Positions 4,301-61,544 of a DNA stretch of 64,000 bases are shown in pieces. Position 1 is the first letter of the stretch. Every line of letters begins with the position of its first letter. The DNA is from Candidatus Binatia bacterium (lineage in GTDB: Bacteria > Desulfobacterota > Binatia > UBA12015), in NCBI GenBank assembly GCA_029243485.1, contig JAQWRY010000002.1:1-64000 (forward strand), given 5' to 3'. The notes below the pieces were generated by a model. That model was given only the letters and a program-made list of their open reading frames with translations, was not told the DNA's origin and searched no databases. Position numbers and translations under genes: made by a program.

Positions 4301-6567
4301 GTTCTCGCCCCCGGGCACACTTTCTACATCCTCTCGCGGTGGCCGCGCTCTTGATCGGCTGCGATCCCGGACGTCCGAACTGGGATGCACCGATCGAGGG
4401 CCCGGCCCGGCCCGCGGCCGACGTCACGGCGACCGACACCGGTCGGCGCGACGTCGGGCGGGCACTCGGCGAGACTCCGCGCGACGACAAAGTCGTCCTG
4501 TTCGGCGATCTGCACGTTCACACGACGTACTCCTTCGATGCCTACCTCTTCTCGCTGCCCGTGCTGGGCGGCGAAGGCGCACACCCCCCGAACGACGCGT
4601 GCGACTTCGCGCGCTATTGTGCCGACCTCGACTTCTACGCCCTGACCGACCACGCCGAGTCCCTGGTGGAGCAGACGTGGGAGGCCTCGAAGCAGAGCGT
4701 GCGGCAGTGCAACCAGGTCGCGGGCGACCCGACGGATCCCGACGTCGTCGCCTTCATGGGCTTCGAATGGAGCCAGGCCGGCACGACCCCTGAGTCACAC
4801 TACGGACACCGCTGCGTCTTCTTCCGCGACACCGAAGACGACGCGCTTCCCGTCCGCCCGATCGGCTCCCGTGCCGATACCGACATCATGTCGTCAGCAC
4901 GCGACAACATCGGGATGATGCGGATGGTCACGCCGTGGAACTACCAACAGTACGACGACTACATGAAGTACGTGACACGGGTGATCGACCAGCCGCTCTG
5001 TGAAGACGGCGTCCCGGTTCGCGACAATCCCTCCGACTGCAAAGACGTCGCCGAAACCCCCCGGATTCTGCGCGAGAAGCTCGACGACTGGGACTACGAA
5101 GCGCTCGTCATCCCGCACGGCACGGCGTGGGGTGTCTACACGCCCGCAACGACGAAGATCGACAAGCATCTCGACCCCATGCAGTTCGATCCCGAGCGCC
5201 AGCTCCTCGTCGAAATCATGTCGGGCCACGGCAACTCCGAGGAGTACCGCGCCTTCCGCGAATGGGAGACCGACGCCAACGGGAACGTCGTATGCCCCGA
5301 GCCCACCGAAGACTATCTACCGTGCTGCTGGCAGGCGGGTGAGATCATGCGCTCGCGATGCGGCGATCTGCCCGCCGACGAATGCGAACGACGCGTCATC
5401 CAGGCGCGCGCCTTCGCGACCGAAGCCTACACCAAACCTCGGGAGGTCTTCCCGGATGCCCCGTTGGAGGACTGGCTCGACTGCGACCAATGTCGCGACT
5501 GCTTCAAACCCGCGTTCTCGTACCGCCCGCTCGAATCGGTGCAGTACGCGATGACCCTCACGCGCGACGACGCGACCGGGGCCGATGGCAAGCCGCTACG
5601 CTTCCGTTACGGCTTCATCGGCTCGAGCGACGGCCACTCCGGCCGCCCCGGAACCGGCTACAAGCCCGTTGAGCGCGGGATGATGACCGACATCACCGGG
5701 GAACCGAATGGTCTCGTCCTGAAGCTTCAGGACTACCTGGCCCGGATGGACGACCCCCAGCAGCCCGCGCGACCAGCGACCGGGCCCATTCGTCTGTCCG
5801 GCAACGACCTTCGTATCTCGAACTTCTTGTACCCAGGTGGCATCGCAGCCGTACACTCCGAAGGTCGAAGCCGCGAGGAGATCTGGGAAGCGATGCAGCG
5901 TCGTGAGGTCTACGGGACAAGCGGACCGCGGATTCTGCTGTGGTTCGACCTTCTCGACGGCAATGAGCGCTTCCCGATGGGGAGTCAGGTCGAGCGCGAC
6001 GAGGCACCCCGGTTCCAAGTGCGCGCCGCCGGTGCTTCGATTCAGAAAGCCGGCTGCCCCGAGTGGGTCCACCACGGCCTCTCCAAGGATCGTGTCACGC
6101 GCCTTTGTCGAAATGAGTGCAACAACCCGAGTGATGAACGACATCCGATCGCCGCCATCGAGATCATCCGAATTCGAACCCGCAACGATGCAGACGAAGC
6201 GATTGAGCCGCTCATCGAGGATCCCTGGAAGCGATTCGACTGCGACCTCGATCCGGCCGGGTGCGTCGTCGAGTTCGAAGATTCGAGCTTTCCGCAGGAC
6301 GCGCGCGACACGTTGTATTACGCCCGCGCGGTGCAGGTGGAGACCTCCGAGATCAACGGCGCGCAGCTCAAGACCACGTTCGATGAGCAGGGTCGGGCGA
6401 TCGCCATCGACTGGTGTGCGCCGGAAGTCGGGCAGGATTGTCTCGGCCCGAGCCAGGAACGCGCGTGGTCCTCGCCGATCTTCGTCGACTACACGGCGCC
6501 GGAACAACCGGTCGCCGAGCAACCGGAGGCGGAGCGCCCCAAGGCAGCAGAGCAAGCACCCACCTGA
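4297..6567 (+). CDS. DUF3604 lipoprotein, PHP-like putative metallohydrolase (copy 1)
   Basis: A 756-residue protein of the DUF3604 family, which has PHP-phosphoesterase-like metal-binding motifs but no established reaction. A lipoprotein signal ends at LIGC (C22). The metal motifs are GDLHVHTTYS (H73, H75), LTDHAE (D118, H119) and GSSDGHSG (H447). Many cysteine pairs suggest disulfides and an exported location. The ATG at 4297 overlaps the acylase stop by four bases, so the two proteins are probably made together and both anchored to a membrane. A strong intrinsic terminator follows at 6689-6733, closing the transcript. Two further DUF3604 genes are at 9.2 and 36 kb. The protein ends with the same RAWSSPIF/RAWTSPIW-type motif as its paralogues. 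Confidence 0.9.
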   Translation: MSSRPRAHFLHPLAVAALLIGCDPGRPNWDAPIEGPARPAADVTATDTGRRDVGRALGETPRDDKVVLFGDLHVHTTYSFDAYLFSLPVLGGEGAHPPNDACDFARYCADLDFYALTDHAESLVEQTWEASKQSVRQCNQVAGDPTDPDVVAFMGFEWSQAGTTPESHYGHRCVFFRDTEDDALPVRPIGSRADTDIMSSARDNIGMMRMVTPWNYQQYDDYMKYVTRVIDQPLCEDGVPVRDNPSDCKDVAETPRILREKLDDWDYEALVIPHGTAWGVYTPATTKIDKHLDPMQFDPERQLLVEIMSGHGNSEEYRAFREWETDANGNVVCPEPTEDYLPCCWQAGEIMRSRCGDLPADECERRVIQARAFATEAYTKPREVFPDAPLEDWLDCDQCRDCFKPAFSYRPLESVQYAMTLTRDDATGADGKPLRFRYGFIGSSDGHSGRPGTGYKPVERGMMTDITGEPNGLVLKLQDYLARMDDPQQPARPATGPIRLSGNDLRISNFLYPGGIAAVHSEGRSREEIWEAMQRREVYGTSGPRILLWFDLLDGNERFPMGSQVERDEAPRFQVRAAGASIQKAGCPEWVHHGLSKDRVTRLCRNECNNPSDERHPIAAIEIIRIRTRNDADEAIEPLIEDPWKRFDCDLDPAGCVVEFEDSSFPQDARDTLYYARAVQVETSEINGAQLKTTFDEQGRAIAIDWCAPEVGQDCLGPSQERAWSSPIFVDYTAPEQPVAEQPEAERPKAAEQAPT

Positions 6568-9227: not shown

Positions 9228-11447
9228 ATGGTGCCGGCTGACTTCTCGGCGCACAGGGGCCATCTGGCCCGGCTCGCGCTGTTCCTGTGCCTCCTCATCG
9301 TCCCGGTGGGGTGCGTCCTCATCCCGGAGAACCCGGGAAGCGAGGAATGGAGCCCCCCGGGCGATCCGGCGGTGGCCCAGCCCCTCCTCGCCCGTGAACC
9401 CTGCGCGAACCACGACCCCCTGCGCCAACCCTTGTACGGCGACCTCCACGTTCACACCGCCTACTCGATGGATGCGCGAATTCGCGAGACGCTGCTCACC
9501 CCGGACGATGCCTATCGCTATGCGACGGGCCGGCCCGTCGACATCATGCCGACCGGCGACAACGGACTCAGCAGGCGGCAGATCCGAATCGACCGCCCTC
9601 TCGACTTCGCGGCGGTCACCGATCACGCCGAGTGGATGGGCGAAATCAAGATCTGCCTCGACCCGAGGAGTGCGGCGTACGACACCCACAGCTGTCGGAT
9701 CTTCCGCGGCGAGGAAGACTCCTGGCTCGCGTGGCTCTTTGGTGTGACGGGTAGCCACTCACGCATCGTCGGCGTCGTCGGGATCGGTGGTCGAAACAGC
9801 GAGGTCTGCGGCCCCGACTCGAAGGAATGTCGGGCCGCAACCAAGTCTGTCTGGGACGACACACGGGAGTCTGCCGAACGGTTCTACGACCGAAGCGCCG
9901 CCTGCGAATTCACGACCTTCCCGGCGTGGGAGTACAGCCGCAGCCCCGGCCGCTCGAAGATCCATCGCAACGTGATCTTCCGCAACGAGATCGTACCCGA
10001 ACTCCCGATCTCGTGGATAGACACGCAGACCGAGCAAGAGCTTTGGCAGCGCCTGCGAGAACGTTGCCTCGACCCCCAGGTGGGCTGCGACGTCCTTTCG
10101 ATCCCTCACAATCCAAACCTCTCGAACGGCAACATGTTCAACGTCTGGTACCGCGACCGTCCGATCGAAGAGCAGCGGGAGCAGGCCGCCCTTCGCGCGT
10201 CGATGGAGCCGCTCGTCGAGATGATGCAGGTCAAAGGCGAGTCCGAGTGCGCGAACGGCATGCACGGAGTCCTCGGCGGCACCGATGAGTTCTGCGACTT
10301 CGAGAAGGTTCGCGGGATCGGGCCCAACGCGCCGGAGGATTGCGTCGAAGACACCGGCAAAGGTGCGCTCAAGGGTGCCGGCTGCCAGTCCCGACTCGAC
10401 TTCGTCCGATACGCGCTCATCGAGGGCCTCCGAGAGGGCAAGCGAATCGGCGTCAATCCGTTTAAGTTCGGCTTCATCGGGAGCACGGACACCCACAACG
10501 GGAATCCCGGCGGTATAAGTGAGGCCGGCTACCCGGGCTCCGGCGGCGTCGAGGACATGACGGCGGCGCTCCGACTCTCTTCCGCCCCGGCGGGAACCCC
10601 GCAGAACCGGAAGGAAGTGAGTCGGAACCCCGGAGGTCTCGCGGGCGTCTGGGCCGAGGAGAACTCGCGGGATTCGCTGTTCGACGGCATGCGACGGCGC
10701 GAGACGTTCGCGACGAGCGGACCGCGCATAGCGCCGCGCTTCTTCGGCGGCTGGGATCTACCAAGCGATCTCTGTGATCGGGAAGATCTCGTCGAACAGG
10801 GCTACGCGATTGGCGTCCCGATGGGCTCCGATCTTCCGGAGCGGGTGGGACACGGCGCCCCGACGTTCGCTGTGATTGCGGCGCACGACGCGGGGACCCC
10901 TGAGCAACCCGGTGGTCTGCTGCAGCGCGCGCAGATCGTGAAGGGCTGGGTCGGACCGCACGGGCGCTTCTACCAGGCCGTGTACGACGTCGCCGGTACG
11001 GCCGACAACGGCGCGGCTGTCGACCTCGCAACCTGCGAAACTTCGGGCCCCGGCTACGCGAGCCTTTGCGGTGTCTGGCGTGACCCCGACTTCGACGCCG
11101 AGCAAGCCGCCGTATACTACGCGCGCGTGATCGAGAATCCGACCTGTCGCTGGTCGTGGCGGCAATGCCTCGAGTTTGCCGCGGACGACCGGCCCGCCGG
11201 CTGCACCGACGACACCATCCCGCAGGTCATCCACGAACGCGCGTGGACGTCGCCCATCTGGTTCGAACCGCCGGCGGCCTCCTCCTCTAGCCTCGAGAGA
11301 AGTCGATCTGGGTCCGTTTCTCGGAGCCAATCGGTGCGGGTGTCAGTGACGGCGTCTCCCGCGGTCCAATTTCGGATCAACTGCTTCACTCGCGACGCCA
11401 GGCCGCGGGGGTGCCCGGGGCCGGACTCGCGCATGGCTTCGACGTAG
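9228..11447 (+). CDS. DUF3604 lipoprotein (copy 2), tail overlaps dus
   Basis: A 739-codon frame of the DUF3604 family. The lipoprotein signal ends at VPVGC (C29), followed by the metal motif GDLHVHTAYS (H74, H76), VTDHAEW, and GSTDTHNGNPG. The family's usual C-terminus, ERAWTSPIWFEPPA, is reached near 11275, but no stop follows and the frame runs on about 170 bases into the convergent dihydrouridine-synthase gene. A TAG is present in another frame at about 11302, so a one-base indel could have removed the original stop. Closest in the window to copy 3 (37.9-36.0 kb), with shared SIPHNPNLSNG/TIPHNSNLSGG and PLVEMMQ motifs. Function is unknown; it is probably an exported hydrolase. Confidence 0.88.
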   Translation: MVPADFSAHRGHLARLALFLCLLIVPVGCVLIPENPGSEEWSPPGDPAVAQPLLAREPCANHDPLRQPLYGDLHVHTAYSMDARIRETLLTPDDAYRYATGRPVDIMPTGDNGLSRRQIRIDRPLDFAAVTDHAEWMGEIKICLDPRSAAYDTHSCRIFRGEEDSWLAWLFGVTGSHSRIVGVVGIGGRNSEVCGPDSKECRAATKSVWDDTRESAERFYDRSAACEFTTFPAWEYSRSPGRSKIHRNVIFRNEIVPELPISWIDTQTEQELWQRLRERCLDPQVGCDVLSIPHNPNLSNGNMFNVWYRDRPIEEQREQAALRASMEPLVEMMQVKGESECANGMHGVLGGTDEFCDFEKVRGIGPNAPEDCVEDTGKGALKGAGCQSRLDFVRYALIEGLREGKRIGVNPFKFGFIGSTDTHNGNPGGISEAGYPGSGGVEDMTAALRLSSAPAGTPQNRKEVSRNPGGLAGVWAEENSRDSLFDGMRRRETFATSGPRIAPRFFGGWDLPSDLCDREDLVEQGYAIGVPMGSDLPERVGHGAPTFAVIAAHDAGTPEQPGGLLQRAQIVKGWVGPHGRFYQAVYDVAGTADNGAAVDLATCETSGPGYASLCGVWRDPDFDAEQAAVYYARVIENPTCRWSWRQCLEFAADDRPAGCTDDTIPQVIHERAWTSPIWFEPPAASSSSLERSRSGSVSRSQSVRVSVTASPAVQFRINCFTRDARPRGCPGPDSRMAST

Positions 11448-17780: not shown

Positions 17781-17873
17781 CTCTGCCGGATCTACCGCAG
17801 AGCCGCGCAAGAGGGAACCGTCGCCGACCTGGGAGTTTCCAAAACGGCCGCCGGACCCGTAGGAAGGAAATTG

Positions 17874-20849
17874 ATGAGTGCTCCCGCCCCGAACCCCGCG
17901 CCGACCACCGAGCGTCCCCAGGCGACTCGGCTCGCGCGTCGATTTCTCGCGGCCGTCCAGAATGGGATCGAGATCGCTCGGTTCGGCGGACTCGGCGAAA
18001 AGCAGGCGTCGCCCTACGAAGTCGTCACGGAAGGGCCCGTGCACCGGCTGCGGCGGTACTTCCCCGACGACGTACCGGCGGGCGCGCCACCCGTACTGCT
18101 GATCCCGCCGCTCATGATGACCGCAGAGGTCTGGGACGTCGCCCCCGAATACAGCGCAGTCCTCGCCCTGCAGGGCCACCAGATGGATCCCTGGGTCGTC
18201 GACTTCGGCTCACCGGAAAAGGAAGAGGGCGGTCTCGAACGAACCCTGAGCGATCACGTCATCGCCGTCTGTAACGCCGTCGAAGACGTCCGCACCGCGA
18301 CCGGCCGGGACGTCCATCTCTCCGGCTATTCCCAAGGCGGGATGTTCGCGTACCAAGCGGCCGCGTATATCCGCTCCGAGGGATTGTCCTCTTTGATCAC
18401 CTTCGGCAGCCCCGTCGATCTACATCGTGCACTGCTAGACATGGTGCCAACCGAGTTCATCCTCGACCTCGTCGAGAAGGTCGGGCGAATCGACTCGTCC
18501 CTCCTCCCCTCCGGGATCCCACGTTGGGCGACGCGGCTCGGCTTCCAGCTGATGGACCCGATTAAGACGGTCCAACAGCGCATCGAATTCGCGAAGCGCC
18601 TCTACGATCGCGAAGCGCTTCTCGAGCGCGAGGGCATGCGCCGCTTCATGGATGACGAGGCGTGGACCGCATTCCCCGGGCCCGCTCTTCGCGACGCAAT
18701 CCAACAGCTCGTGGCGCACAACCGACTCCTGCGCGGCGGTGTCGTCATCGGCGACCGCACCGTGACGCTGGCGGACATCACCTGCCCGATCCTCGCCTTC
18801 ACCGGCGACACGGATTCCATCGCGCCCGCGCCTACGGTCCGCGCGATCCACTCCGCCGCGCCGCGAGCCGAATCCTACGAGGTGAGCCTCAACGCCGGTC
18901 ACTTCGGCCTGGTCGCAGGCAGCCGCGCGATCGAAGAGACCTGGCCGACCGTCGCGCAGTGGATTCGCTGGCGCGAAGAGAAAGGGCCACGCCCTCTGGC
19001 CGCTCGTGCGCTGTCGTCCACCATCATCGAGGACGCACCACAGCACACGGTCATGGACGATCTGGTGGGCGGCGCCGAAACGGCGTGGCACATCGGCAAG
19101 GAACTCGCGTCGGGCGCGGCCGAAATGGTCGGTGGGAGAATGGGCACACTCGGCCGGATGCTCGAGGCCGTTGCACCACAGCTGCCCCGGCTCTCGAGAC
19201 TCGCGTCGATCCGCAGCGATACACCGATCAGCCCCGGGCAGGCGCTCCAGGAAAAAGCGGACGAATCCGGCGACGACACATTCTTCTTGTTCGAGGGTCG
19301 AGCGTACAACTACGGCGAAGCGAACGTCCGCATCGACAACATCGTGCTCGGCTTGCTCTCGTGCGGCGTACGCCACGGCGATCACGTCGGACTTCTGATG
19401 GAGACCCGGCCCAGCGCCGTCGCCGCCGCGGTCGCACTCTCTCGACTCGGCGCCGTCATCGTTCTCCTGCGCCCCGACGTCTCTCTAAAGAAGCAACTCG
19501 AACTCACGCCCATCGGTCATCTCCTGACCGACCCGGAGCTCGGAGAAGCGGCCTACAAGGCGCACCGCCGCAAGGTCCTCGTACTCGGCGGCGGCGGTGA
19601 CCCCCGATCGCTCGCCGACGGATTGATCGACATGGAGGCGATCGATCCTTCGGAGGTGACGCCCCCGGATTGGTACCGACCGAACCCGGGACGCGCCGGA
19701 GAGCTCGCCATGGTCTTCATCACCGGAGACGGCCACAGGCTCGGCATGAGTCGCGTCACCAATCGTCGCTGGGCCACGTCCGCATACGGGACCTCTTCGG
19801 CGACCGCACTCACGTCCCGCGATACGGTCTACTGCGTCTCACCCACGCATCACGCGACCGGCATGCTCGTCTGTGTTGGCGGAGCGCTCGTGAGCGGGGC
19901 GCGCCTCGCGATGACGCGCGGCTTCGAACTCGAAACGTTCTGGGACGACATCCGACGCTACGGAGTCAACGTCGTCTTCTACAGCGGCACCCTCTGTCGC
20001 GCGCTCGTGAACGCCCCACGCAATCCGGCCGAACGCGATCACCCCATCCGCTTGTTCGCCGGCAGCGGCATGCCCGCCGGCATCTGGCAGCGATTGATCG
20101 ACCGCTTTCGCCCGGCGCTGGCGATCGAGTTCTTCGCCTCGACCGAGGGCAACGCGGTGCTCGTGAATCTGACCGGCGAGAAGGTCGGCTCCGTCGGCCG
20201 GCCGCTTCCCGGTGGAGCCGAACTCGCGCTCGCCGCGTGGGATCTCGACCGCAGCGGGCTCGTCGAGCGCGGCAACGGCTTTGCCGAGCGCTGCAAGCGT
20301 GGTGCGGTAGGCCTCCTCCTCGCTCGCGCGGCCCCGGAACGTGGAGAGGTCGAGGGACGACCGCTGCGGGGTGTGTTCAACCCCGGCGACGCCTGGCTCG
20401 ACACCGGCGATCTCGTACGGCGCGATCCCGACGGCGACTACTGGCTCGTGGATCACGTGTCCGACGTCATCCACACCAAGGGCCGCGCGATCGCCACGAT
20501 TCCGATTGAGGACCTGCTCGCCACCGAGCTGGAGTTCGTCGATCTCTGCGCCGTATACGGCGTCGTCCTCCCGGGCGACGACGACGAATCGGTAGCAGCC
20601 GCAATCACTCTCCGGCCGGGCCACAAGTTCGACGCCGAGGCCTTCCGCCAGACCGCGGACGCGCTTTTACTTACGGAGCAGCGCCCTGCCCTCGTCCGCG
20701 TCCTCGACGATCTCCCGATGACGTCGGGCCAGCGCGTGCGCAAACAGCCGCTCCGCGCCGAAGGCTGCAAGAAAGGGTCGGGCAAGCGCTACCGGCTCGA
20801 CCCGACCCTGCCCATCTACACCCGCATCAAGAAAAGCGAGCGGTACTGA
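17874..20849 (+). CDS. PhaC-like alpha/beta hydrolase fused to acyl-CoA-synthetase-like domain
   Basis: A 991-residue two-domain protein. Residues about 40-370 resemble a polyhydroxyalkanoate-synthase-type alpha/beta hydrolase: PVLLIPPLMM oxyanion region, nucleophile elbow GYSQGG with S153 (PHA synthases usually have Cys), acid in FTGDTDSIAP and histidine in NAGHFGL. Residues about 460-990 resemble an ANL adenylate-forming enzyme of the FadD/FATP type: FFASTEGN (about 752-759), DTGDL (about 843-847) and a C-terminal RVRK lysine region. However, the ATP-loop motif that should read SGTTGxPK is instead FITGDGHRLGMS (about 612-625), so adenylation may be altered or lost. AGGAAGGA six bases upstream supports the ATG at 17874. 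Confidence 0.85.
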   Translation: MSAPAPNPAPTTERPQATRLARRFLAAVQNGIEIARFGGLGEKQASPYEVVTEGPVHRLRRYFPDDVPAGAPPVLLIPPLMMTAEVWDVAPEYSAVLALQGHQMDPWVVDFGSPEKEEGGLERTLSDHVIAVCNAVEDVRTATGRDVHLSGYSQGGMFAYQAAAYIRSEGLSSLITFGSPVDLHRALLDMVPTEFILDLVEKVGRIDSSLLPSGIPRWATRLGFQLMDPIKTVQQRIEFAKRLYDREALLEREGMRRFMDDEAWTAFPGPALRDAIQQLVAHNRLLRGGVVIGDRTVTLADITCPILAFTGDTDSIAPAPTVRAIHSAAPRAESYEVSLNAGHFGLVAGSRAIEETWPTVAQWIRWREEKGPRPLAARALSSTIIEDAPQHTVMDDLVGGAETAWHIGKELASGAAEMVGGRMGTLGRMLEAVAPQLPRLSRLASIRSDTPISPGQALQEKADESGDDTFFLFEGRAYNYGEANVRIDNIVLGLLSCGVRHGDHVGLLMETRPSAVAAAVALSRLGAVIVLLRPDVSLKKQLELTPIGHLLTDPELGEAAYKAHRRKVLVLGGGGDPRSLADGLIDMEAIDPSEVTPPDWYRPNPGRAGELAMVFITGDGHRLGMSRVTNRRWATSAYGTSSATALTSRDTVYCVSPTHHATGMLVCVGGALVSGARLAMTRGFELETFWDDIRRYGVNVVFYSGTLCRALVNAPRNPAERDHPIRLFAGSGMPAGIWQRLIDRFRPALAIEFFASTEGNAVLVNLTGEKVGSVGRPLPGGAELALAAWDLDRSGLVERGNGFAERCKRGAVGLLLARAAPERGEVEGRPLRGVFNPGDAWLDTGDLVRRDPDGDYWLVDHVSDVIHTKGRAIATIPIEDLLATELEFVDLCAVYGVVLPGDDDESVAAAITLRPGHKFDAEAFRQTADALLLTEQRPALVRVLDDLPMTSGQRVRKQPLRAEGCKKGSGKRYRLDPTLPIYTRIKKSERY

Positions 20850-20855
20850 GCCGCC

Positions 20856-21656
20856 TCAGACCGCGATCTCGATGCCGTCGCCGGACGTATCGTCGTAGCG
20901 CTGGTGCAGGAAGGGGAGCAGCCAGTCTCCCGGCACGGCCCGCAGCACCGTTCCGTTGCTCTCCGAGTTTCCCTCTTCGTACTCGACCCGCACCAGGCGC
21001 TTGATCGGAACGTCGGCCACCGGATCCATCGGCGAGTCGCCCAGAACGAGCTCCGCACCGTCGACCTCGTGAACGGCCTTGTGTTTGTGCCGCCACTCGA
21101 GTCGTACCAAGAGCGGATCGGCATCGAAAGCCCGGCCCTGCTCGCACGAGGGCATCGCCTTGAAGCAATAGGCGTACTGCGTGAACTCACGCGGGCCGAG
21201 GTCCTTTCCGACCTTGCCCTTCACGGAGAGATACGTCATCCCCATGCGGGACACGCTCGAGGAAAGAGCGTCACCGTCCCTCTTGAAGTCGATCTCTGCG
21301 ATCTTCTTCGGCTCGCCAAACGTCTCGCGTCCGGGGACGACGGCTTGCTCCGTCGTCATGGGCATCGTGACGAGGTAGTCGCCCTCGACGCCTTCGAAGG
21401 TCGCGGCGACGCCGAACACCGCGGAGCCGATCTCGAACGTGAACTCGGGCGTGATGTGCATCGCCACATGCGAAAACGTGACGTTGATCTCCGGGCGCGC
21501 GAGCTCGAGCGGCTGCGGGAGCAGAGCACGCGCGATCGCCTCGTTCGTCTCATAGACACAACGAATCGAGCGAACCGTGCTGTCCATGAACTCCGGGTTT
21601 TCTTCCTGCCCTTTTTTCACCTGCTCATCGGTCTTCACGTAGCGAAGCTTGGCCAT
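20856..21656 (-). CDS. Acetoacetate decarboxylase family protein
   Basis: A 266-residue protein of the ADC superfamily. The segment PGRETFGEPKKIAEI carries the Lys pair (K117-K118) that in true acetoacetate decarboxylase forms the Schiff base, so a decarboxylase or other imine-based carbon-carbon chemistry is plausible. Length and the EVDGAELVLGDSP region fit the family. It is the last gene of the TetR-Rieske-amidohydrolase-ADC operon, 45 bases after the amidohydrolase stop. The ATG at 21656 has AAGGAAAGGA upstream. Substrate is probably a product of the oxygenase and amidohydrolase, which is inference. Confidence 0.82.
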   Translation of the reverse strand: MAKLRYVKTDEQVKKGQEENPEFMDSTVRSIRCVYETNEAIARALLPQPLELARPEINVTFSHVAMHITPEFTFEIGSAVFGVAATFEGVEGDYLVTMPMTTEQAVVPGRETFGEPKKIAEIDFKRDGDALSSSVSRMGMTYLSVKGKVGKDLGPREFTQYAYCFKAMPSCEQGRAFDADPLLVRLEWRHKHKAVHEVDGAELVLGDSPMDPVADVPIKRLVRVEYEEGNSESNGTVLRAVPGDWLLPFLHQRYDDTSGDGIEIAV

Positions 21657-21701
21657 GTCATTTCCTTTCCTTTTCGCTTTCGCCTGCGATCGTTAACTGC
21701 T

Positions 21702-22922
21702 TCAGACGGCGGCGGCTTCGTCGAAGTCGCCCTTCTTCGGGCCGACCCGATCGACGACCGGCGCGAGGCGCTCGGCGTCGAAGCCGTAGAAGCGGGCCGC
21801 GTTTCCACCGAGGATCGCCGCGACGTCGCCCTCGGGAAGACCGCGAAGGGAGTCGCACCGATGGCTCTTCGTAAACGGCCACGTGCCCTCGGGATGCGGG
21901 TAGTCGCTACCCCACATGATGTTCTTCACGCCAATGTCGTTGCGCATCGCGGCTTCGCGACTCGAGAGGCACGAGGCGCCGAGACCCACGTTCCGGGCAA
22001 AGTACTCGCTCGGCTTCATCTTCAAGTGGCTGTGGTAGTCGCCGAGTTTCGCGGACTGATGCGTGTCGGTGTACCGGTGATCCATGAGTGCCAGGTACTC
22101 GGGCACCCACACGACCGTGCCCTCCGTGATCGACACCTTGATGCGCGGAAAGCGCTCGAACACGCCGCCCCACATCAGAAACGTGAGCGGCCGGACGTTG
22201 TACCAACAGACCTCGGACACGTAGATACCCATCCCGCCGGGCAGCTTCTCGGCACCCGGATCGGTCAGGTCGCCGAAGTAATCACCCATCGGCGCCGGCC
22301 CCGAATGGAAGTGCACGACGACGTCGTTGTCCTGGCACGCCGCCCAGAGCGGGTCGTACTTGGGATGGTGATACGGCGCGTGCGAGCCCCACTGACACGG
22401 GAGCAATGCTCCGGAAAGACCGTTCTTGCGCGCCCACACGACTTCGCGAACCGCTTCGTCGACATCCCACAGAGCGGGGACCAACGCGACTCCCACGTGC
22501 CGGTCGGGCGCCTGCGAAACGAACTCGGCGAGCCAGCGATTGTGCGCACGCGCACCGGCCCATTGCAGCTCGGGGACGATCCCGCCTTCCGTCGGAAGGC
22601 TGAGCCCCGCACCGAAGGGCGGCATGTTCATCTCGGTGATGCCGTCGGGGAAGATCACTTCGCCGGCAATGCCGTCGCCGTCGAGCACTTTGATTCGCTC
22701 GTCGTGATCCCACGCGCCCGAGAGCTCGGCGTCGCGGCCTTTACGCCACTCCTCGTTGATCTCCGCGACGAGGAACTGGTCCGACATCCGCTTCACCTGC
22801 TCGAGTTGAATCGGCAGCGCGACATCGAAGGTCTCACGGTACTGCGGATCGAGGTAGTCGCGGTACTTCTCCGGCGGCAAGCCGGCGTGGCAATCGGACG
22901 AAATGACGAGGTAGCGGTCCAT
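21702..22922 (-). CDS. Amidohydrolase-2 family metal-dependent hydrolase/decarboxylase
   Basis: A 406-residue TIM-barrel protein of the amidohydrolase-related family that includes ACMSD and 5-carboxyvanillate decarboxylase. The N-terminal SSDCHAG corresponds to the metal-binding strand; further signatures are VVVHFHSG and MWGSDYPHPEGTWPFT with the conserved Asp. Hydrolysis or non-oxidative decarboxylation of an aromatic or ring-cleavage product is expected. The start at 22922 overlaps the Rieske stop (TGATG) and has AGGAG seven bases before it, showing translational coupling. The frame extends upstream inside the Rieske gene, but that part is not homologous. Confidence 0.88.
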   Translation of the reverse strand: MDRYLVISSDCHAGLPPEKYRDYLDPQYRETFDVALPIQLEQVKRMSDQFLVAEINEEWRKGRDAELSGAWDHDERIKVLDGDGIAGEVIFPDGITEMNMPPFGAGLSLPTEGGIVPELQWAGARAHNRWLAEFVSQAPDRHVGVALVPALWDVDEAVREVVWARKNGLSGALLPCQWGSHAPYHHPKYDPLWAACQDNDVVVHFHSGPAPMGDYFGDLTDPGAEKLPGGMGIYVSEVCWYNVRPLTFLMWGGVFERFPRIKVSITEGTVVWVPEYLALMDHRYTDTHQSAKLGDYHSHLKMKPSEYFARNVGLGASCLSSREAAMRNDIGVKNIMWGSDYPHPEGTWPFTKSHRCDSLRGLPEGDVAAILGGNAARFYGFDAERLAPVVDRVGPKKGDFDEAAAV

Positions 22923-23911
22923 CAATTTTCTCCTGCGGCGCGCAGCGGAGCCGGGTCGGTGTAGAACTGCTTCACCCAACGCCGATACTCGGCGATATAC
23001 TTGTCCCCCTTGCACAGAAGGGGCTTCGCGCGGTGGACCTTGTTGGCCCAGATCGGCTGATCTTGCTCCACGCCCTGAACGAGGCGGTGTAGGAAGTCGT
23101 CGCCGGCATGATCGATCATATTGTTCGACGCGCTGAGGACCCACCGAGAAATCGTGTGCGCCGGATCGAGATCGATCGGCGTCGTCGAGGAGTAGAGCAG
23201 CATGCCCGCCTCGGGAATCCCCTCGAGACGAACGGCGCTCATGCCGATCCCCCACGAGTCACGAACCAACGAGGTCTCGAACGAACCGATGGCGGTGTCC
23301 ATCGTCTGCTGGTTCGTCATGCGGTAGTGACGGCCGTCGTCGCTGTACGTGATCTCGCCCGGGAACTCCTGGCCCGCCATGTTGTGCACGAACTGGAAGT
23401 GGACCGGGTCGTTGTTGTTCTCGTGCATGTCCTGCACATGCGCGTGGACGGACAACTCGAAGATCTTCGGTTCGGACCATTCCTCATCGCCGAGCTCCGG
23501 CAATTGCGGAAAGTCCCACAAGGGAGGCTTCTTCTCCGCGTGGTACCAGACGAAGATCATCTCGTTCTTCTCCTGGGTGTGCCACACGCCGACCTTCGCC
23601 CCCTTCGGGATCGTGTCGCAGTACGGAATCTTCACGCAGCTGCCGTTCTCACCGTCGTACTGCCAGCCATGAAACGGGCAGCGCACCGTCTCGCCGATCA
23701 CTCGACCGCCGTGTCCGATGTGCGCGCCGAGGTGTGGACAGAACGCATCGAGCACCCGCGCCTCGCCGGAGCGCGTGCGGAACAGCACCATGTCTTCGCC
23801 GAAGTAGTGGATCGGCTGAACGGCTCCCTTGATGAGATCTTTGCTGAACGCGACCGCGTACCAACCATTCGGCACGGGCAGACTCACATGTTCGGCTTCG
23901 CGAAAAGCCAT
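22922..23911 (-). CDS. Rieske oxygenase, KshA-like
   Basis: A 329-residue terminal oxygenase component. The Rieske [2Fe-2S] cluster is C58-x-H60 (CPHLGAHIGHGG) with C78 and H81 (CPFHGW). The mononuclear iron motif is D168-x2-H171-x4-H176 (NNDPVHFQFVH). Size and motifs fit the single-component oxygenases such as 3-ketosteroid 9-alpha-hydroxylase (KshA); no reductase gene is nearby, so a shared one must supply electrons. A strong AGGAGG lies eight bases before the ATG. It sits in a four-gene operon between TetR and an amidohydrolase. A steroid or aromatic substrate is inferred, not shown. Confidence 0.92.
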   Translation of the reverse strand: MAFREAEHVSLPVPNGWYAVAFSKDLIKGAVQPIHYFGEDMVLFRTRSGEARVLDAFCPHLGAHIGHGGRVIGETVRCPFHGWQYDGENGSCVKIPYCDTIPKGAKVGVWHTQEKNEMIFVWYHAEKKPPLWDFPQLPELGDEEWSEPKIFELSVHAHVQDMHENNNDPVHFQFVHNMAGQEFPGEITYSDDGRHYRMTNQQTMDTAIGSFETSLVRDSWGIGMSAVRLEGIPEAGMLLYSSTTPIDLDPAHTISRWVLSASNNMIDHAGDDFLHRLVQGVEQDQPIWANKVHRAKPLLCKGDKYIAEYRRWVKQFYTDPAPLRAAGEN

Positions 23912-23914
23912 GAT

Positions 23915-24559
23915 TCAATCCTCCTGCTCCCCCGGTGCGATCGTATCACCGAGAAGCTGCGCCATGGCGCGGGCCTGCTCGCGTACCGGGTAGTCGTCCA
24001 GGTTCGTCCAGCTGAACATCAGCGCGTAGAACGCGCCAAGAATCAGCTCCGTCAGAGTCTCGGGGCTGTGCTTGATCGTGACCTCGCCGGCGGCGACGCC
24101 GTCGCGAACGATCGCGCCCATTGCGTCATGGAGTTGGCGTGCCCGCTTGTCCTTCTCACCCTCGCTGCTCGCCGCGTGGATGATCTCCGTCAGCACCTCG
24201 CGGTGCTTGGGTCCGACGTCGGTCGCCCCTGCCCCGATCATGTCGAAGAAGTGGACCAGGCGCTCCCGGGTCGACATGACGCCGGCGCGCAGGGCCTCGA
24301 TGTCCACGAGGAAGCCCTCGATGGCCTGATGGGCGAGTTCGCGGACGAGGTGCTGCTTGGTCGGAAAATAGTTGAAGAAGGTCTTTGTGGCGACGTCCGC
24401 CCGATCGCAGATCTCGGCCACGGTGGTCGCCTGATACCCCTGCTCCTCAAAGAGTTCGGCCGCCGCGTCCACCATTCGACCGCGCACTTCGAGCTTACGC
24501 CGCTCCCGTCGGGTGACGGGCTCCGCGTCGGCGAGAATTGCGGCTCGTACGTCGTTCAC
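23915..24559 (-). CDS. TetR-family transcriptional regulator
   Basis: A 214-residue regulator. The N-terminal helix-turn-helix (about residues 28-72) reads MVDAAAELFEEQGYQATTVA ... VATKTFFNYFPTKQHLV, a clear TetR DNA-binding domain; the rest is an all-helical ligand-binding domain. It is the first gene of the operon with the Rieske oxygenase, which starts three bases after its stop, and is divergent from an LLM oxidoreductase across a 162-bp region containing several palindromes. It probably represses both transcripts and responds to a pathway substrate or acyl-CoA. Confidence 0.93.
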   Translation of the reverse strand: MNDVRAAILADAEPVTRRERRKLEVRGRMVDAAAELFEEQGYQATTVAEICDRADVATKTFFNYFPTKQHLVRELAHQAIEGFLVDIEALRAGVMSTRERLVHFFDMIGAGATDVGPKHREVLTEIIHAASSEGEKDKRARQLHDAMGAIVRDGVAAGEVTIKHSPETLTELILGAFYALMFSWTNLDDYPVREQARAMAQLLGDTIAPGEQED

Positions 24560-24721
24560 GGGTGGATCCTGCGTGAACTTACACTCTCATGCAAGTTTAC
24601 TTCGCAATAGATTTTGTAAAACGAAGGTTCGATGTCGAACACTTGCCAAATATGATCGATTCATCATATTCGAGAAATCGATCAGTTAGACCGGCCAACT
24701 CCAGAGAAGAGGTAGCCACTG
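24560..24721. promoter_or_regulatory. Divergent promoter region with operator-like palindromes
   Basis: This AT-rich gap between the TetR and LLM genes holds the perfect inverted repeat GTTCGA-TG-TCGAAC at 24627-24640 and a nine-base inverted repeat TGATCGATT (24653-24661) with AATCGATCA (24676-24684). Inside and across the latter, ATATGAT and ATCATAT form another palindrome. Such symmetry is expected of TetR binding sites. The LLM ribosome-binding site (AGAAGAGG) is at the right edge. Confidence 0.6.
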
Positions 24722-25570
24722 ATGAAGTACGGCGTCTGCATGTTCCCGACCGACTACGCGATGAATCCCGCGGAACTCGGGCCCAAACTCGAAGAGCGCG
24801 GCTTCGAATCCTTGTGGGTCGCCGAGCACACCCACATTCCGTGCTCCCGCGAGTCGCCGTGGCCCGGCGGGGCCGAGCTACCCAAGATGTACTACGACTG
24901 CTTCGCGCCGCTCCTGACGCTGGCCGCGGTCGGCGCCACGACGAAGACGCTGAAGCTCGGTACCGGCATCCAACTCGTCGCGCAGCACGACCCGATCACC
25001 CTCGCGAAGGAGATCGCCACCCTCGACCAGATGACGGGCGGTCGGTTCCTCTTCGGGGTCGGCGGCGGGTGGAACCGCGAAGAGCTTGCGAACCACTACG
25101 ACTTCCCCTTCGAACGACGCTGGAAAGTCATGCGGGAACGTATCGAGGCCATGAAGGCCATCTGGACCCAGGACAAAGCCGCCTACCACGGCGAATTCGT
25201 GAACTTCGACGAGATCTTCTCTTGGCCCAAGCCGGTGCAGAAGCCGAATCCACCGATCCACGTCGGAGGCGCAGCTCCGTGGGGTATCAAGCGAGCCCTG
25301 CGGTACGGAGACGGCTGGATTCCCCTCTCCGGACGAGGTGACTCGGATCCGATCTCGGACATGAAGCAGTTCCGGACGATGGCCAAGGAAGCCGGCCGGG
25401 ACCCCGACTCCATGGAGGTCTCCCTCTACGTGGCCCCGACCGACGAAACCGAGCTCTCCAAGCTCAGCGATGCGGGCTACTCCCGGGTTCTGTTCATCGC
25501 GCTTCCCCTGGCCGGAGACGATATGACGAAGATGCTCGACACGTACGCGGAGGCGGGCCAGAAGATTTGA
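24722..25570 (+). CDS. LLM-class F420-dependent oxidoreductase
   Basis: A 282-residue luciferase-like (beta/alpha)8-barrel oxidoreductase. It starts MKYGVCMFPTDYAMNP, with ESLWVAEHTHIP, LGTGIQLVAQHDPI, RFLFGVGGGWNREE and PPIHVGGAAPWGIKR, all characteristic of the F420-dependent subgroup (TIGR03619-like) rather than FMN-dependent luciferases. It is divergent from the TetR operon and probably controlled by that regulator. The substrate is unknown; a reduction or dehydrogenation in the same pathway as the Rieske operon is possible. Confidence 0.9.
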   Translation: MKYGVCMFPTDYAMNPAELGPKLEERGFESLWVAEHTHIPCSRESPWPGGAELPKMYYDCFAPLLTLAAVGATTKTLKLGTGIQLVAQHDPITLAKEIATLDQMTGGRFLFGVGGGWNREELANHYDFPFERRWKVMRERIEAMKAIWTQDKAAYHGEFVNFDEIFSWPKPVQKPNPPIHVGGAAPWGIKRALRYGDGWIPLSGRGDSDPISDMKQFRTMAKEAGRDPDSMEVSLYVAPTDETELSKLSDAGYSRVLFIALPLAGDDMTKMLDTYAEAGQKI

Positions 25571-31964: not shown

Positions 31965-32735
31965 TCAGCCTCCAAACCGGTAGCTGAGCTCCGCACCGAA
32001 CGTCCGCGGCGCACCGTGGTAGCGCACCACGTGTCCGAAGAGAGAGGCGAGGGGAGCCACGAAGGTGGTGTACTTTGGGCCCGTCAGGTTCCGGTCCCAC
32101 AGCGCGACGCTCGCGTCGATCGGGAGATTGAACATGATCCGCGCATCGACCGTGCCGAGGTTGCCCGGGCGAACCATCGCGAACGCTTCCAACTCTTCGT
32201 GCGGCTTGATGCTCGTGATGTTGACGGCGCCGCGGATGTTGTTTTTTCCAAGCAGCGTCCCCTGCGCTCCGCGCAGTACTTCGACCTGCTGGACGTCGAC
32301 GACATCTAGGATTCCGCCCTGCGCGCGCGGGAGAAAGACCCCATCGATGTAGAATCCGACGCCGGGCTCGAAATCCGCGCCGAGCGTGGCGGTCCCGATG
32401 CCGCGAATGAGCAGCTGCTGCTCCTGCCCGCTGCCGCCCACGACGAACGTGAGATTCGGCACCAACTCCTGGATCTGGTCGATCTGTGTGACGTTGGCCT
32501 CGCGCAGCGTGCTCTCGGACAGCGCGGTCACCGCGACCGGCGTGTCTTCCAGAAGCTCGGCGCGCTTGCGCGCTTGCACGACGCTCTCTTCGACCTGCGC
32601 CGTCGCGCGCCCAGAGAGGCCCGGTGCGGTGTCATCCGCCGCCTCCGCGGCAGGACCCTCCTGGGCGAAACCCAGGACCGGCAAGACCGCGGAAAGGGGC
32701 AGCGCCCTGAGGGCAGCAACTAGCTTGTTTGGCAT
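31965..32735 (-). pseudogene. TonB-dependent receptor with in-frame loss of the barrel
   Basis: A 256-codon frame against a usual 700-900. It has a signal peptide (start ATG 32735 with GGAGG nine bases before), a Ton-box-like VEESVVQARKRAE, and a complete plug domain (SESTLREANVTQIDQIQELV, LLIRGIGTATLGADFEPG, VEVLRGAQGTLLGKN). At about residue 208 it jumps to the last barrel strands ([13 protein letters not shown] at the C-terminus). About 500 residues of beta-barrel are missing, yet the frame is intact. It cannot form a channel. It is the first gene of the operon with the LLM and Gfo/Idh enzymes. An assembly collapse is an alternative. Confidence 0.8.
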
Positions 32736-56450: not shown

Positions 56451-57605
56451 TCACCCTCCGACGATGGATCGCTTGGCCACCTCTTCGAGCATGACCTCGG
56501 TCGCTCCGCCACCGATCGTCAACACCCGAGCATCGCGATACATGCGCTCCACGGCCGATTCGCGCATGAAGCCCATACCGCCGTGGAACTGGGTGCACTC
56601 ATACATCACTTGGTTCACGACTTCCGCACCCCAAGCTTTCACGCCCGACATCTCCTTCACGTTGTCCGTTCCCTGCTCCCCGAGCCACGCCGCGTGGTAC
56701 ATCGAAGCCCGGACCGCGTCGACCTTGGCCTGCGCGAGAGCCAGTCTCTGTCGGATCGCGCCGAGGTCGTAGAGCCGCCCACCGAAGGCCGGCCGGTCCT
56801 GCGTGTATTTCAGCGTGAGATCGATGGCCTTCTGCGCCGCCCCGACACCCATTCCCACGAGGACCATGCGCTCGTTCTGGAAGTTACGCATCGTCTCGTA
56901 GAAGCCTCGGTGCGGCGTACCGAGGAGCTGATCGTCGGGGACGAATACGTCCTCGAGAACCAGCTCGGCAGTGTCCGAGCAGCGCCAGCCGTGCTTGTCC
57001 AACTGACTCGCGACCTCGAAACCCGGCGTGCCCTTCGGAACCAGGAACATGGAGATGCCGTACTTGTCGTCTGGATTCGTACGAGCCGCGACGATCGTGA
57101 GATCGCCGTAGACGCCGTTGGTGATGAACGTCTTGCGTCCGTTCAGGATCCAACCATCGCCATCACGCCGCGCCGTCGCTCGAATTCCGGCGACGTCGGA
57201 GCCCGCATCGGGTTCGGTCACCGCGATCGCGAGGATGACCTCTCCGGCGAGGACATCACCCATCCACCGCTCGTGCTGCGCCGGCGAACCGGAACTCACC
57301 AGATGTGGACCGGCCATGTCCGTGTGCACGAGCACAGTCACGTCGAACCCGCCGAACGACGACGAACCGAGCGCCTCGGAGAACACGGCGGATGCGACCG
57401 GACCGAGCCCAACCCCGCCAAGAGATTCAGGAACGCGAAGACCCAGCATCCCGAGTTCGCCCATCTTCTGCAGAATCTCCCGCGGAACCTTGCCGTCCTC
57501 CTCCCACGCAGCGCCCTGCGGCTCGACCTCCCGCGCCACGAAGTCGAGGGTCTGCTGGTAGATCGCCTCCAGCTCGTCGGTCATCCACGCGTTGCGTCGG
57601 CCCAT
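56451..57605 (-). CDS. Acyl-CoA dehydrogenase
   Basis: A 384-residue flavoprotein of the ACAD superfamily: ILAIAVTEPDAGSDVAGIRA (flavin and substrate loop), GWILNGRKTFITNG, YTQDRPAFGGRL, and QFHGGMGFMRESAVERMYRD followed by LTIGGGATEVM. It oxidises an acyl-CoA to the enoyl form and passes electrons to ETF. Chain-length preference cannot be read. The start at 57605 is one choice; an ATG at 57584 would give a more typical N-terminus. The downstream MaoC hydratase could act on its product. Confidence 0.92.
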   Translation of the reverse strand: MGRRNAWMTDELEAIYQQTLDFVAREVEPQGAAWEEDGKVPREILQKMGELGMLGLRVPESLGGVGLGPVASAVFSEALGSSSFGGFDVTVLVHTDMAGPHLVSSGSPAQHERWMGDVLAGEVILAIAVTEPDAGSDVAGIRATARRDGDGWILNGRKTFITNGVYGDLTIVAARTNPDDKYGISMFLVPKGTPGFEVASQLDKHGWRCSDTAELVLEDVFVPDDQLLGTPHRGFYETMRNFQNERMVLVGMGVGAAQKAIDLTLKYTQDRPAFGGRLYDLGAIRQRLALAQAKVDAVRASMYHAAWLGEQGTDNVKEMSGVKAWGAEVVNQVMYECTQFHGGMGFMRESAVERMYRDARVLTIGGGATEVMLEEVAKRSIVGG

Positions 57606-57657
57606 GAGATCCAACTTAGCGCGTGTCGGGCCGCGCGTATAAGGCTAAGAAAACGGC

Positions 57658-58026
57658 ATGGCCATCAAGCTCGTCTTCTGCTGCCGCCGCCGTCCGGAGC
57701 TCTCCCTCGAAGAGTTCCTCGAGACCTGGCTCAACGACCACGGCCCCCTAGTGAGGCGCGTCCGCGAGAATCTCCCGCAGATGACGCGCTACGTGCAGAG
57801 CCACCTTATCCCCGGCCCCGGCACAGACGGGCTCCGCTCCTCACGCGGCTCCGCCGAACCCTACGACGGCATCACCGAAGTCTGGTTCGACTCCCTTGAA
57901 TCCGTAGGCGCCGCCACCACCGAAGAAGCCCTCGCCGCCGGCCGCGCCCTCCTAAAAGACGAAGCCCGCTTCCTAGACCTCCCCAACTGCTCCCTCTTCC
58001 TCACCGAAGAACACGAGATCTTCTGA
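57658..58026 (+). CDS. EthD-domain protein
   Basis: A 122-residue dimeric alpha-beta-barrel-like protein: KLVFCCRRRPELSLEEFLET followed by WLNDHGPLVR and MTRYVQSHLI are the EthD signature. Relatives are small proteins associated with ether or steroid degradation of uncertain activity. The stop is four bases before the left arm of the inverted repeat at 58031. It is divergent from the acyl-CoA dehydrogenase. Confidence 0.88.
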   Translation: MAIKLVFCCRRRPELSLEEFLETWLNDHGPLVRRVRENLPQMTRYVQSHLIPGPGTDGLRSSRGSAEPYDGITEVWFDSLESVGAATTEEALAAGRALLKDEARFLDLPNCSLFLTEEHEIF

Positions 58027-58030
58027 GCGA

Positions 58031-58143
58031 GGGGACGTTGGTTAGTCTCGACCTTTTTGTTTAGTCGTCGCGCACTTTAGGTGAGGGCTGATGCTTGGGG
58101 AGTCGACGACTAAACAAAAAGGCCGAGACTAACCAACGTCCCC
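58031..58143. repeat. REP/BIME-like inverted repeat pair
   Basis: Two 40-base arms, 58031-58070 and 58104-58143, are inverted copies with one mismatch. Each arm begins GGGGACGTTGGTTAGTCTCG from its outer end. The 33-base centre is unrelated. The right arm reaches 14 bases into the CoA-transferase gene and supplies its TAG stop; the left arm starts four bases after the EthD stop. A solo copy is at 117-152. The structure is that of a REP pair (BIME). Confidence 0.9.
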
Positions 58144-59376
58144 TCCGAACACTCCGGCTTTGCGGAGGGTGGCTATGTCTTCGGGGGTTTTGTTGAGGAC
58201 TTTGGAGAGGACCTCGTCGGTGTTTTGGCCGACGGTGGGGGCCATGGTGGGGGTTGGGAGGGGCTTGTTGTCGACGTAGACTGGGAGGGGGAGCTGTTCG
58301 CAGCCGACGGCGTCGATGGGGAGAAAGGGCATGCGGTGTTGGAACTGGGGATCGTCGCCGACGTTCTTCGTCGTGTTGATCGGGGCGATCGTCGTGTTTT
58401 TCTCCGACGCGAACGTGAGCCAATCTTTCACCGTGCGGGTGCGGAAGATGTCGCGTAACTCCGTCTGGAGTTCCTTGTTGCCGCGCGCATGGTCGGCGTA
58501 CTTCGAGCCGGGCCACTTTTCGAAGAGGTCCATACGGTCGAGGCCTGCGCAGAAGTTCTTCCAGAACGCCTGCTCCGAAGCCATGAACAAGATGTGGCCG
58601 TCCTTGGCCTCGTAGGCCTGGTAGCGAACGCCTTCCCACATCCCCGCGAGCCCGGCGGGGCGTCGGACGTAGTCGTCCGAAGGATTCCCCGTGACCTCGT
58701 CCTCCGGCCGCAGGTACGCCCTCTCGGTCTCGATGCGATACCAGTCCATGTACGCGGACGCGTCGGACTGGGCCATCTCCATCTCACAGCCCTCGCCCGT
58801 CTCGCGGGCCTTGATGACTCCCGCGAGAATCGCCATCGCGGCCATCATAGGTCCGACGTTGATGCCCACGTTCGGCATGTCCCGCGGGATGTGACAGAAG
58901 CCCTCGTCGTCGACGACGGGCTGCACAATCCCCGACCACGTGTCGTAAGCAATCCCGTGACTCGGCATGTTCTGGTACGGCCCGGTCGCGCCGTAACCTG
59001 AAAGAGTGGCGAATACGATCTTCGGGTTCACCTTCTTCAAGTCGTCGTAGCCGAGCCCCAGCTTCGCCATCGAACCAGGACGCAACGCCTCCACCACGAC
59101 GTCCGCGGTGGCGACGAGATCCTTGTAGAGCTGCACACCCTCGGGATTCTTCAGGTTCAGCGTGATGCTCTTCTTCCCACGGTGCGTGTGCAGGTGGAGG
59201 AGAGAAACGCCGTCCACGATCGGCCACGTCATCTGACGGATGTAGTCACCCGAAGGCGGCTCTACCTTGATGACGTCGGCGCCCATGTCGGCGAAGAAAG
59301 TCGCCACGTGCCCCGGGCCGAGGAGACTCGACTCGATCACGCGCACACCAAAGAGAAGCTGCTTGGAATCTTTCAC
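58129..59376 (-). CDS. CaiB/BaiF CoA-transferase (family III)
   Basis: A 415-residue enzyme: LFGVRVIESSLLGPGHVATF, DMGADVIKVEPPSGDYIRQM, ITLNLKNPEGVQLYKDLV, VVVEALRPGSMAKLGLGYDD and GEGCEMEMAQSDAS with the catalytic-region Asp. A GTG start at 59376 has AGAAGG nine bases upstream, and the MaoC stop is 14 bases away. It is the last gene of the six-gene operon. It probably activates an acid by CoA transfer or epimerises a 2-methylacyl-CoA. Its last codons and stop lie in the repeat. Confidence 0.92.
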   Translation of the reverse strand: MKDSKQLLFGVRVIESSLLGPGHVATFFADMGADVIKVEPPSGDYIRQMTWPIVDGVSLLHLHTHRGKKSITLNLKNPEGVQLYKDLVATADVVVEALRPGSMAKLGLGYDDLKKVNPKIVFATLSGYGATGPYQNMPSHGIAYDTWSGIVQPVVDDEGFCHIPRDMPNVGINVGPMMAAMAILAGVIKARETGEGCEMEMAQSDASAYMDWYRIETERAYLRPEDEVTGNPSDDYVRRPAGLAGMWEGVRYQAYEAKDGHILFMASEQAFWKNFCAGLDRMDLFEKWPGSKYADHARGNKELQTELRDIFRTRTVKDWLTFASEKNTTIAPINTTKNVGDDPQFQHRMPFLPIDAVGCEQLPLPVYVDNKPLPTPTMAPTVGQNTDEVLSKVLNKTPEDIATLRKAGVFGGDVG

Positions 59377-59390
59377 GGAGAAATCCTTCT

Positions 59391-59873
59391 TCAAGGCTGC
59401 CAGTCGTCGCCCTTGCGGGCCCACGGATTGTCTTCGGGGTTCGTCGGGACTGCGAAGCGCGCGGCGCAGGAGGTCATCGTGTTGCCTTCGACGTCCACGT
59501 TGACGTCGATCGAGACCCAGCCGCACCCCTTGTCGTCTGTCGAGACGTCGGTGACCTTCCCCGTGAAGACCATGCGGTCTCCACAGAAGACCGATCCCTT
59601 CATGCGGAACTGCATCCGTCCGGGGCGGCCCTTCGGTCCGGTCCAGTCCGTGAGATACTTCTCGAACCAATGCGCCAGATTCGGCGTGTTCAGGAAGATG
59701 TCCTTCACGCCGTTGCGGTTCTGGGCGAAATCCTTGTCGTGGTGCATCGGACGGATGTCGCGCGTCGCGATCGCACCGAAGGCGACCGTGGTCGCGGTCA
59801 CGTCGTACGGAAGATCCGGCAGGGTTTCGCCCACCTTCACCTGATCGAGCGTCAGATTCTTCGTCGCGCTCAT
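59391..59873 (-). CDS. MaoC-like hydratase subunit
   Basis: A 160-residue hot-dog protein: TTVAFGAIATRDIRPMHHDK, with the Asp and His of the MaoC motif (RDIRPMHHD), then FLNTPNLAHWFEKYL. The start overlaps the stop of the neighbouring hot-dog gene (ATGA), so the two are probably subunits of one heteromeric enoyl-CoA hydratase, as in the mycobacterial ChsH1-ChsH2 pair. Here this would be the catalytic subunit. Confidence 0.88.
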   Translation of the reverse strand: MSATKNLTLDQVKVGETLPDLPYDVTATTVAFGAIATRDIRPMHHDKDFAQNRNGVKDIFLNTPNLAHWFEKYLTDWTGPKGRPGRMQFRMKGSVFCGDRMVFTGKVTDVSTDDKGCGWVSIDVNVDVEGNTMTSCAARFAVPTNPEDNPWARKGDDWQP

Positions 59874-60382
59874 TTCGCTTCCTTTTTGTAGCCGAACCCG
59901 GCGATCTCCTCGCGTACGAGAAGGTCGCCCTTCATGTTCTCGTAGTTCACTTCGATGTTCCAAAAGCGGCCGGTCCCGAGCTTGGTCGTCTTGGGTCCCG
60001 TCACCGAACGAAGGATCTGATACTGCTTCACCCGCTCCCCCATCCGCACCGGTTCGAAGAAGATGAGCTCATCGGCGGACATGATCGCCTCGGGGCAGTC
60101 GAGCTCGATCTTCAGGTCGAAGTGCGTCCGGAGAGCGAGCCCCTCTTCGTCCCGGTAGGGCGCCCAAAAGTGGGGGCGACACCACACCGAGATCATCGTC
60201 GGCGGCGCAATCCAGCCTCCCGTGACGTCCTTCGCGACGTCTTCATCCCAATACAGCGGGTTTCCGTTCTCGACCGACGAGCAGCCCGTCAGAACGAAGC
60301 CGCGCTCCACATCGAACTCGCCGTCCTCTTCGTGACGACGCTGGCCGATCCACGACTCAACGATTTCCGGTAGATCCGACAT
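59870..60382 (-). CDS. FAS1-like dehydratase/hot-dog partner subunit
   Basis: A 170-residue hot-dog protein of the MaoC N-terminal (FAS1-like dehydratase) type: NPLYWDEDVAKDVTGGWIAP then PTMISVWCRPHFWAP and FFEPVRMGERVKQYQ. These lack an obvious catalytic His/Asp set and act as a structural or substrate-binding partner of a MaoC subunit. The ATG at 60382 follows GAGGGGGA; it is translationally coupled to the MaoC gene. Confidence 0.85.
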   Translation of the reverse strand: MSDLPEIVESWIGQRRHEEDGEFDVERGFVLTGCSSVENGNPLYWDEDVAKDVTGGWIAPPTMISVWCRPHFWAPYRDEEGLALRTHFDLKIELDCPEAIMSADELIFFEPVRMGERVKQYQILRSVTGPKTTKLGTGRFWNIEVNYENMKGDLLVREEIAGFGYKKEAK

Positions 60383-60395
60383 CCGCAGGTCCCCC

Positions 60396-61514: not shown

Positions 61515-61544
61515 CGTCGTATCCTCAGTCCGTTCGAGTCGCGT

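Follow-up and report, generated by a model that had tools for sequence, protein, structure and literature searches.

A conserved TetR–Rieske–PF04909–ADC gene set in a Binatia genome, probably an oxidative module

The Pfam family PF04909 counts more than 100,000 proteins (PMC10811679), many of which are annotated as "amidohydrolase", while only a handful are proven oxygenases. The closest described relatives of the protein studied here are the amidohydrolase-related dinuclear oxygenases (ARO), i.e., PtmU3 (a nonheme diiron monooxygenase), AibH2, SfbO and, by structure, DitZ (for which no paper was found in the open-access literature searched). In the described AibG/SfbO operons, the ARO is paired with a small Rieske ferredoxin, a pairing that served as a discovery criterion and not as a defining one (PMC10811679). 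Here, we analyse a stretch of 64,000 nucleotides from Candidatus Binatia bacterium (assembly GCA_029243485.1, contig JAQWRY010000002.1, positions 1 to 64,000 of the forward strand; hereafter the window), in which a PF04909 gene lies in an operon between the genes of a Rieske oxygenase and of an enzyme with the acetoacetate decarboxylase (ADC) fold, behind a TetR-family regulator. The PF04909 protein shares with the known AROs the fold, the six metal ligands and an extra acidic residue; in contrast, it is only 20–28% identical to them, and its partner is a complete 329-aa Rieske oxygenase with an intact iron site. On balance, we read the operon as an oxidative module under TetR control that is conserved and, most likely, catabolic, and that combines two oxygenases with the ADC-fold enzyme, usually together with a short-chain dehydrogenase/reductase (SDR), which does not adjoin it in the window. 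Each enzyme is from a known family, and no paper featuring an acetoacetate decarboxylase, an amidohydrolase and a Rieske protein together was found in the open-access literature searched, in line with an earlier note on this DNA, which had recognised no pathway.

The four genes are encoded on the minus strand: a TetR-family repressor (23915..24559; GTG start; PF00440 at 59.4 bits), the Rieske non-heme oxygenase of the KshA_C type (22922..23911; PF00355 and PF19298), the 406-aa PF04909 protein, predicted to be an ARO from its sequence, fold and ligand positions (21702..22922), and the ADC-fold enzyme (20856..21656; PF06314 at 120.7 bits for a Pfam cut-off of 29.8). A 3-base gap separates the first two genes, a TGATG junction (in which the Rieske stop and the PF04909 start have one base in common) joins the second to the third, and a 45-base gap precedes the ADC gene, so that the coupling claimed in the earlier note was verified for all four genes. 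The operon flags a coherent group of likely oxygenases within PF04909, along with their genetic partners and a testable regulator.

Conservation of the gene set

Loci of relatives were gathered by searches with the Rieske protein followed by a reading of the gene neighbourhood, the open reading frames (ORFs) being called by a hexamer-scored caller (high-GC). In 19 genomes of the wider group of the window (publicly named Deltaproteobacteria or Myxococcota metagenome-assembled genomes), the Rieske gene lies next to the PF04909 gene; of these, 13 have TetR immediately upstream, 15 have ADC downstream and 10 have an SDR. TetR homologs (42–88% identity) immediately precede the Rieske gene in 12 other genomes. 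The same adjacency occurs in about 14 gammaproteobacterial loci, usually accompanied by TetR, ADC and SDR. Other genera and families keep this order, with proteins about 48–70% identical, and a rearranged form of it exists in Gammaproteobacteria, where it commonly reads as a divergent TetR gene, then ARO–Rieske–SDR–ADC (L142, L143, L145 and L148), or the same without the SDR (L146 and L147), with a major facilitator superfamily (MFS) gene coming next in most such loci. In one sampled gammaproteobacterial order, the PF04909 protein was recovered at an E-value of 1e-80 or better in 25 of 244 genomes (about 10%), while a plasmid search yielded PF04909 homologs of at most 33% identity among the matches listed, one of which (R. 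gordoniae) adjoins an HsaA-like gene. The module is common to several groups of environmental bacteria.

Its composition nevertheless varies. The SDR of these loci, of one family (adh_short), follows the ADC gene in seven loci of relatives (G007, G008, L080, L081, L082, L084 and L086) and takes its place in three (L090–L092). In two loci (L083 and L044), TetR and Rieske are present but the PF04909 gene is not. The divergences of the ARO and Rieske proteins are correlated (Spearman 0.75, 190 pairs), as shared ancestry alone would also give. The earlier note had proposed gene-order conservation as a test able to refute its idea of a linked operon with an oxygenase and an imine-capable ADC-fold enzyme; the test was run and did not refute it, and the idea of such an operon is supported. 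Altogether, TetR, Rieske, ARO and ADC very probably form a functional unit. The F420-dependent luciferase-like monooxygenase (LLM) family oxidoreductase encoded opposite the operon (24722..25570, plus strand; TIGR03619 at 251 bits for a cut-off of 166.9) was considered as a partner and rejected: it does lie opposite the operon, as the earlier note says, but outside the window this neighbourhood is confined to the nearest relative (L034/L094, about 90% identity) and is seen in none of the other loci, so that the gene is not a conserved member.

Two predicted oxygenases

The Rieske protein has the [2Fe-2S] ligands C58, H60, C78 and H81 and, as candidates for the iron site, H171, H176 and D284 with D168 (2-His-1-carboxylate), all invariant in 21 orthologs. 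Being a complete oxygenase, it is more than a ferredoxin serving the ARO, even if electrons may be transferred between the two proteins. Its nearest PDB sequences are those of KshA, the oxygenase of 3-ketosteroid 9alpha-hydroxylase (4qdf, 4qdc and 2zyl), with which it has in common the domain architecture, the Rieske motif and the iron-site residues. In contrast to KshA, it has no NCBIfam KshA (equivalog) match and is tied to an ARO and an ADC-fold enzyme.

This likeness raises the question of whether the module is part of the 9,10-seco pathway of steroid ring degradation, the Rieske protein being KshA and the other proteins accessory. Besides the KshA_C domain, genes of meta-cleavage clusters (HsaA–HsaC–HsaD) speak for it, since they adjoin the module in several Gammaproteobacteria. 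Three such loci (L149, L151 and L152) have an HsaA-like monooxygenase, an HsaD/BphD-like hydrolase and an SDR alongside ARO–Rieske; L151 has an HsaC/BphC-like extradiol dioxygenase and L149 its homolog, both with an ADC gene nearby, while L152 has apparent lower meta-cleavage genes, judged from their N-termini only. These neighbours tie the module there to the breakdown of a ring compound and point to the catabolism of a bulky cyclic substrate. In the group of the window, the module has no such member. An HsaA-like flavin monooxygenase gene, followed by a TetR gene, is found on the same contig, 14 kb beyond the window end (L164:14411-16215), which also speaks for the seco pathway. However, HsaC gave no match at 1e-30 in the window genome, nor in any of the 17 genomes of the class with a close Rieske homolog, as against 50 of 131 others, mostly of other families, a contrast that runs along family lines and does not amount to a test on independent samples. 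Moreover, the operon contains no other steroid-ring gene. We therefore rejected the seco pathway, which is unlikely in view of the absence of HsaC from operon-bearing genomes of the class.

For the PF04909 protein, the earlier note had envisaged a hydrolase or decarboxylase, i.e., a mononuclear-metal enzyme (such as LigW, ACMSD or gamma-resorcylate decarboxylase) that would use the Rieske product as its substrate. Such enzymes belong to the same Pfam family, and the decarboxylases can be superposed on most of the model at Z-scores of about 29–31. Yet, when the family profile was compared with the PDB, PtmU3 (E = 8e-36, the best match) and DitZ (6e-30) came far ahead of the first decarboxylase (1e-17). 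The AlphaFold2 model (pLDDT 88.6) ranks PtmU3 (Z = 35.2) and DitZ (33.7) first, with SfbO and its relatives, AibH1H2 and map2389c coming next; apart from map2389c, which is uncharacterised, the 12 best structures (Z from 35.2 to 31.6) all belong to this oxygenase class, decarboxylases appearing at 31.4 and below, and Foldseek likewise returns DitZ, PtmU3 and SfbO as top matches. The metal ligands of AibH2 are D25, H27, H211, E265, D337 and H340, and an acidic residue two positions after the last histidine (D342 in AibH2, E313 in PtmU3) has been reported only in binuclear members (PMC7782822). Positions were transferred from AibH2 (PMC7782822) and PtmU3 (PMC10811679). The predicted counterparts D10, H12, H206, E267, D340 and H343 are invariant in 24 orthologs (48–86% identity), as is the acidic E345, two residues after H343 (24/24). 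Of these, H206, E267, D340 and H343 fall within the Hidden Markov Model (HMM) alignment with PtmU3 and DitZ, while D10 and H12 were assigned by their DxH motif only, the alignment starting at residue 69. In the same alignment, the decarboxylase 4icm keeps neither the second-metal ligands E267 and H343 nor E345. The evidence for an oxygenase is thus strong but indirect, and the PF04909 protein is highly likely to be one, with a predicted Fe2 or Mn/Fe type site; a mononuclear hydrolase or decarboxylase, which the ligands and nearest structures led us to discard, is quite improbable. The operon hence most likely encodes two O2-activating enzymes. LynB7, which has been characterised, belongs to the class and acts as an oxidative decarboxylase (PMC10127204), so that this reaction would also be possible for the PF04909 protein. 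As a side observation, the structural-genomics entry 4dzi (map2389c of Mycobacterium avium), an uncharacterised 'hydrolase', displays E and DxxHxE motifs of the oxygenase type in the same alignment.

The ADC-fold enzyme and the proposed role

In the model of the ADC-fold protein, every significant fold match is a structure of the ADC superfamily, whose members (clostridial ADC, Swit_4259 and MppR) share with it the fold and the Schiff-base lysine; on the other hand, identity to them is 14–21% and the context in the window is not that of acetone formation. K117, the predicted Schiff-base lysine, aligns with K115 of clostridial ADC and is invariant in 22/22 sequences of two subfamilies. These subfamilies, which are only 20–25% identical, occupy the same slot of the module and both have the lysine, which suggests that the pathway depends on imine chemistry; one gammaproteobacterial locus (L153) has an ADC of the subfamily otherwise seen in the group of the window. 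That the enzyme decarboxylates a beta-keto acid is a possibility we hold at slightly less than even.

A catabolic role of the module is likely. A terpenoid or steroid-like substrate is conceivable, if somewhat less so than the decarboxylation, and a full scheme can be put forward only tentatively. According to this scheme, the KshA-type Rieske protein and the PtmU3-like oxygenase would act one after the other on a single bulky cyclic substrate (a terpenoid, a steroid-like compound or an alkylated aromatic), hydroxylating or oxidising unactivated C–H positions or methyl groups. The SDR, which adjoins the operon in relatives and has only paralogs elsewhere in the window genome, would then turn an alcohol into a ketone, with which the ADC-fold enzyme would form an imine via K117, releasing CO2 from a beta-keto acid or cleaving a C–C bond by retro-aldol. 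The oxidised carbon would thus leave as CO2 (oxidative demethylation or carbon removal) in a widespread catabolic module, as yet undescribed. The enzyme classes in this scheme come from the data, while the order of the steps, the substrate and the carbon removed are conjectural. The sequence imagined in the earlier note, i.e., oxygenation followed by cleavage or decarboxylation, survives for the oxygenase and the ADC-fold enzyme; its PF04909 step finds no support and gives way to a second oxygenase, next to a decarboxylase/lyase. Why two different oxygenases should be paired with an imine-forming decarboxylase is a question raised by this arrangement.

Several observations weigh against this reading, in addition to the lack of HsaC reported above. 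The Z-scores of oxygenases and decarboxylases for the PF04909 model are only a few units apart, and the operon has no ferredoxin or reductase gene. Around the general-acid glutamate (E76 in the clostridial enzyme), sequences of the window type are displaced by two residues in the alignment, and those of the other subfamily show a gap. Finally, ADC is absent from the operon in three genomes (G104–G106), and no SDR adjoins it in the window or its genus, the SDR homologs of the window genome (at most 44% identity) lying elsewhere.

The same enzymes might instead serve the biosynthetic C-4 demethylation of sterols or hopanoids, the Rieske protein making a 4-carboxyl group before decarboxylation of the 3-keto acid. 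Rieske, SDR and ADC would suit this chemistry, and there is a weak match to the model of the bacterial 4beta-methylsterol monooxygenase SdmA (NF052579), but at 61.1 bits, far under the 600-bit cut-off. Furthermore, no squalene epoxidase domain was found in the window genome, on which ground sterol biosynthesis was rejected as very unlikely. Finally, that independent enzymes are neighbours by coincidence is highly improbable. In favour of it, ADC, SDR or TetR are missing in some relatives; against it, the genes overlap, ARO and Rieske diverge in concert, and an order conserved across genera, families and (rearranged) Gammaproteobacteria excludes a neighbourhood by chance.

Regulator and surrounding genes

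The near-palindrome ACTTRCA-N6-TRTAAGT (ACTTGCATGAGAGTGTAAGT, 24577..24596), which begins 37 bases ahead of the TetR gene, is the predicted TetR operator, from which the protein would repress the operon until the substrate or an intermediate binds. It is the sole site in the window with at most one mismatch to the pattern (0.01 expected). The pattern is exact in the nearest relative (L094) and in L037 and has 1–2 mismatches in L036 and L035, counts that are not independent tests because it was derived from these same upstream regions. The inducer of this TetR protein would offer a direct route to the substrate. The divergent intergenic region holds a second, perfect inverted repeat (AATATGATGAATCGATCATATT, 24649..24670), distinct from the predicted operator; its conservation was not found in the nearest relative.

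On another contig of the same genome, a paralogous cluster (L165:6460-9219) groups an SDR, a second ARO (43% identical to that of the window, with all seven ligands kept) and a TetR protein 42% identical to the window TetR; the predicted operator was not found near it. Two gammaproteobacterial loci (L141 and L144) have both ARO types as neighbours. Within the window, an acyl-CoA synthetase gene (17871-20849, plus strand) converges on the operon and ends 6 bases from the ADC stop. Farther away, positions 56451-62726 encode a series of acyl-CoA dehydrogenases, a PimC/PimD-like pair among them, together with dehydratase-like proteins and a CoA-transferase, which hints at side-chain or ring acyl-CoA breakdown. 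A 256-aa ORF (31968-32735) with a TonB-receptor plug domain only resembles a receptor fragment, and two DUF3604 proteins (4339-6567 and 9228-11447) are encoded near a protein of the penicillin-amidase family.

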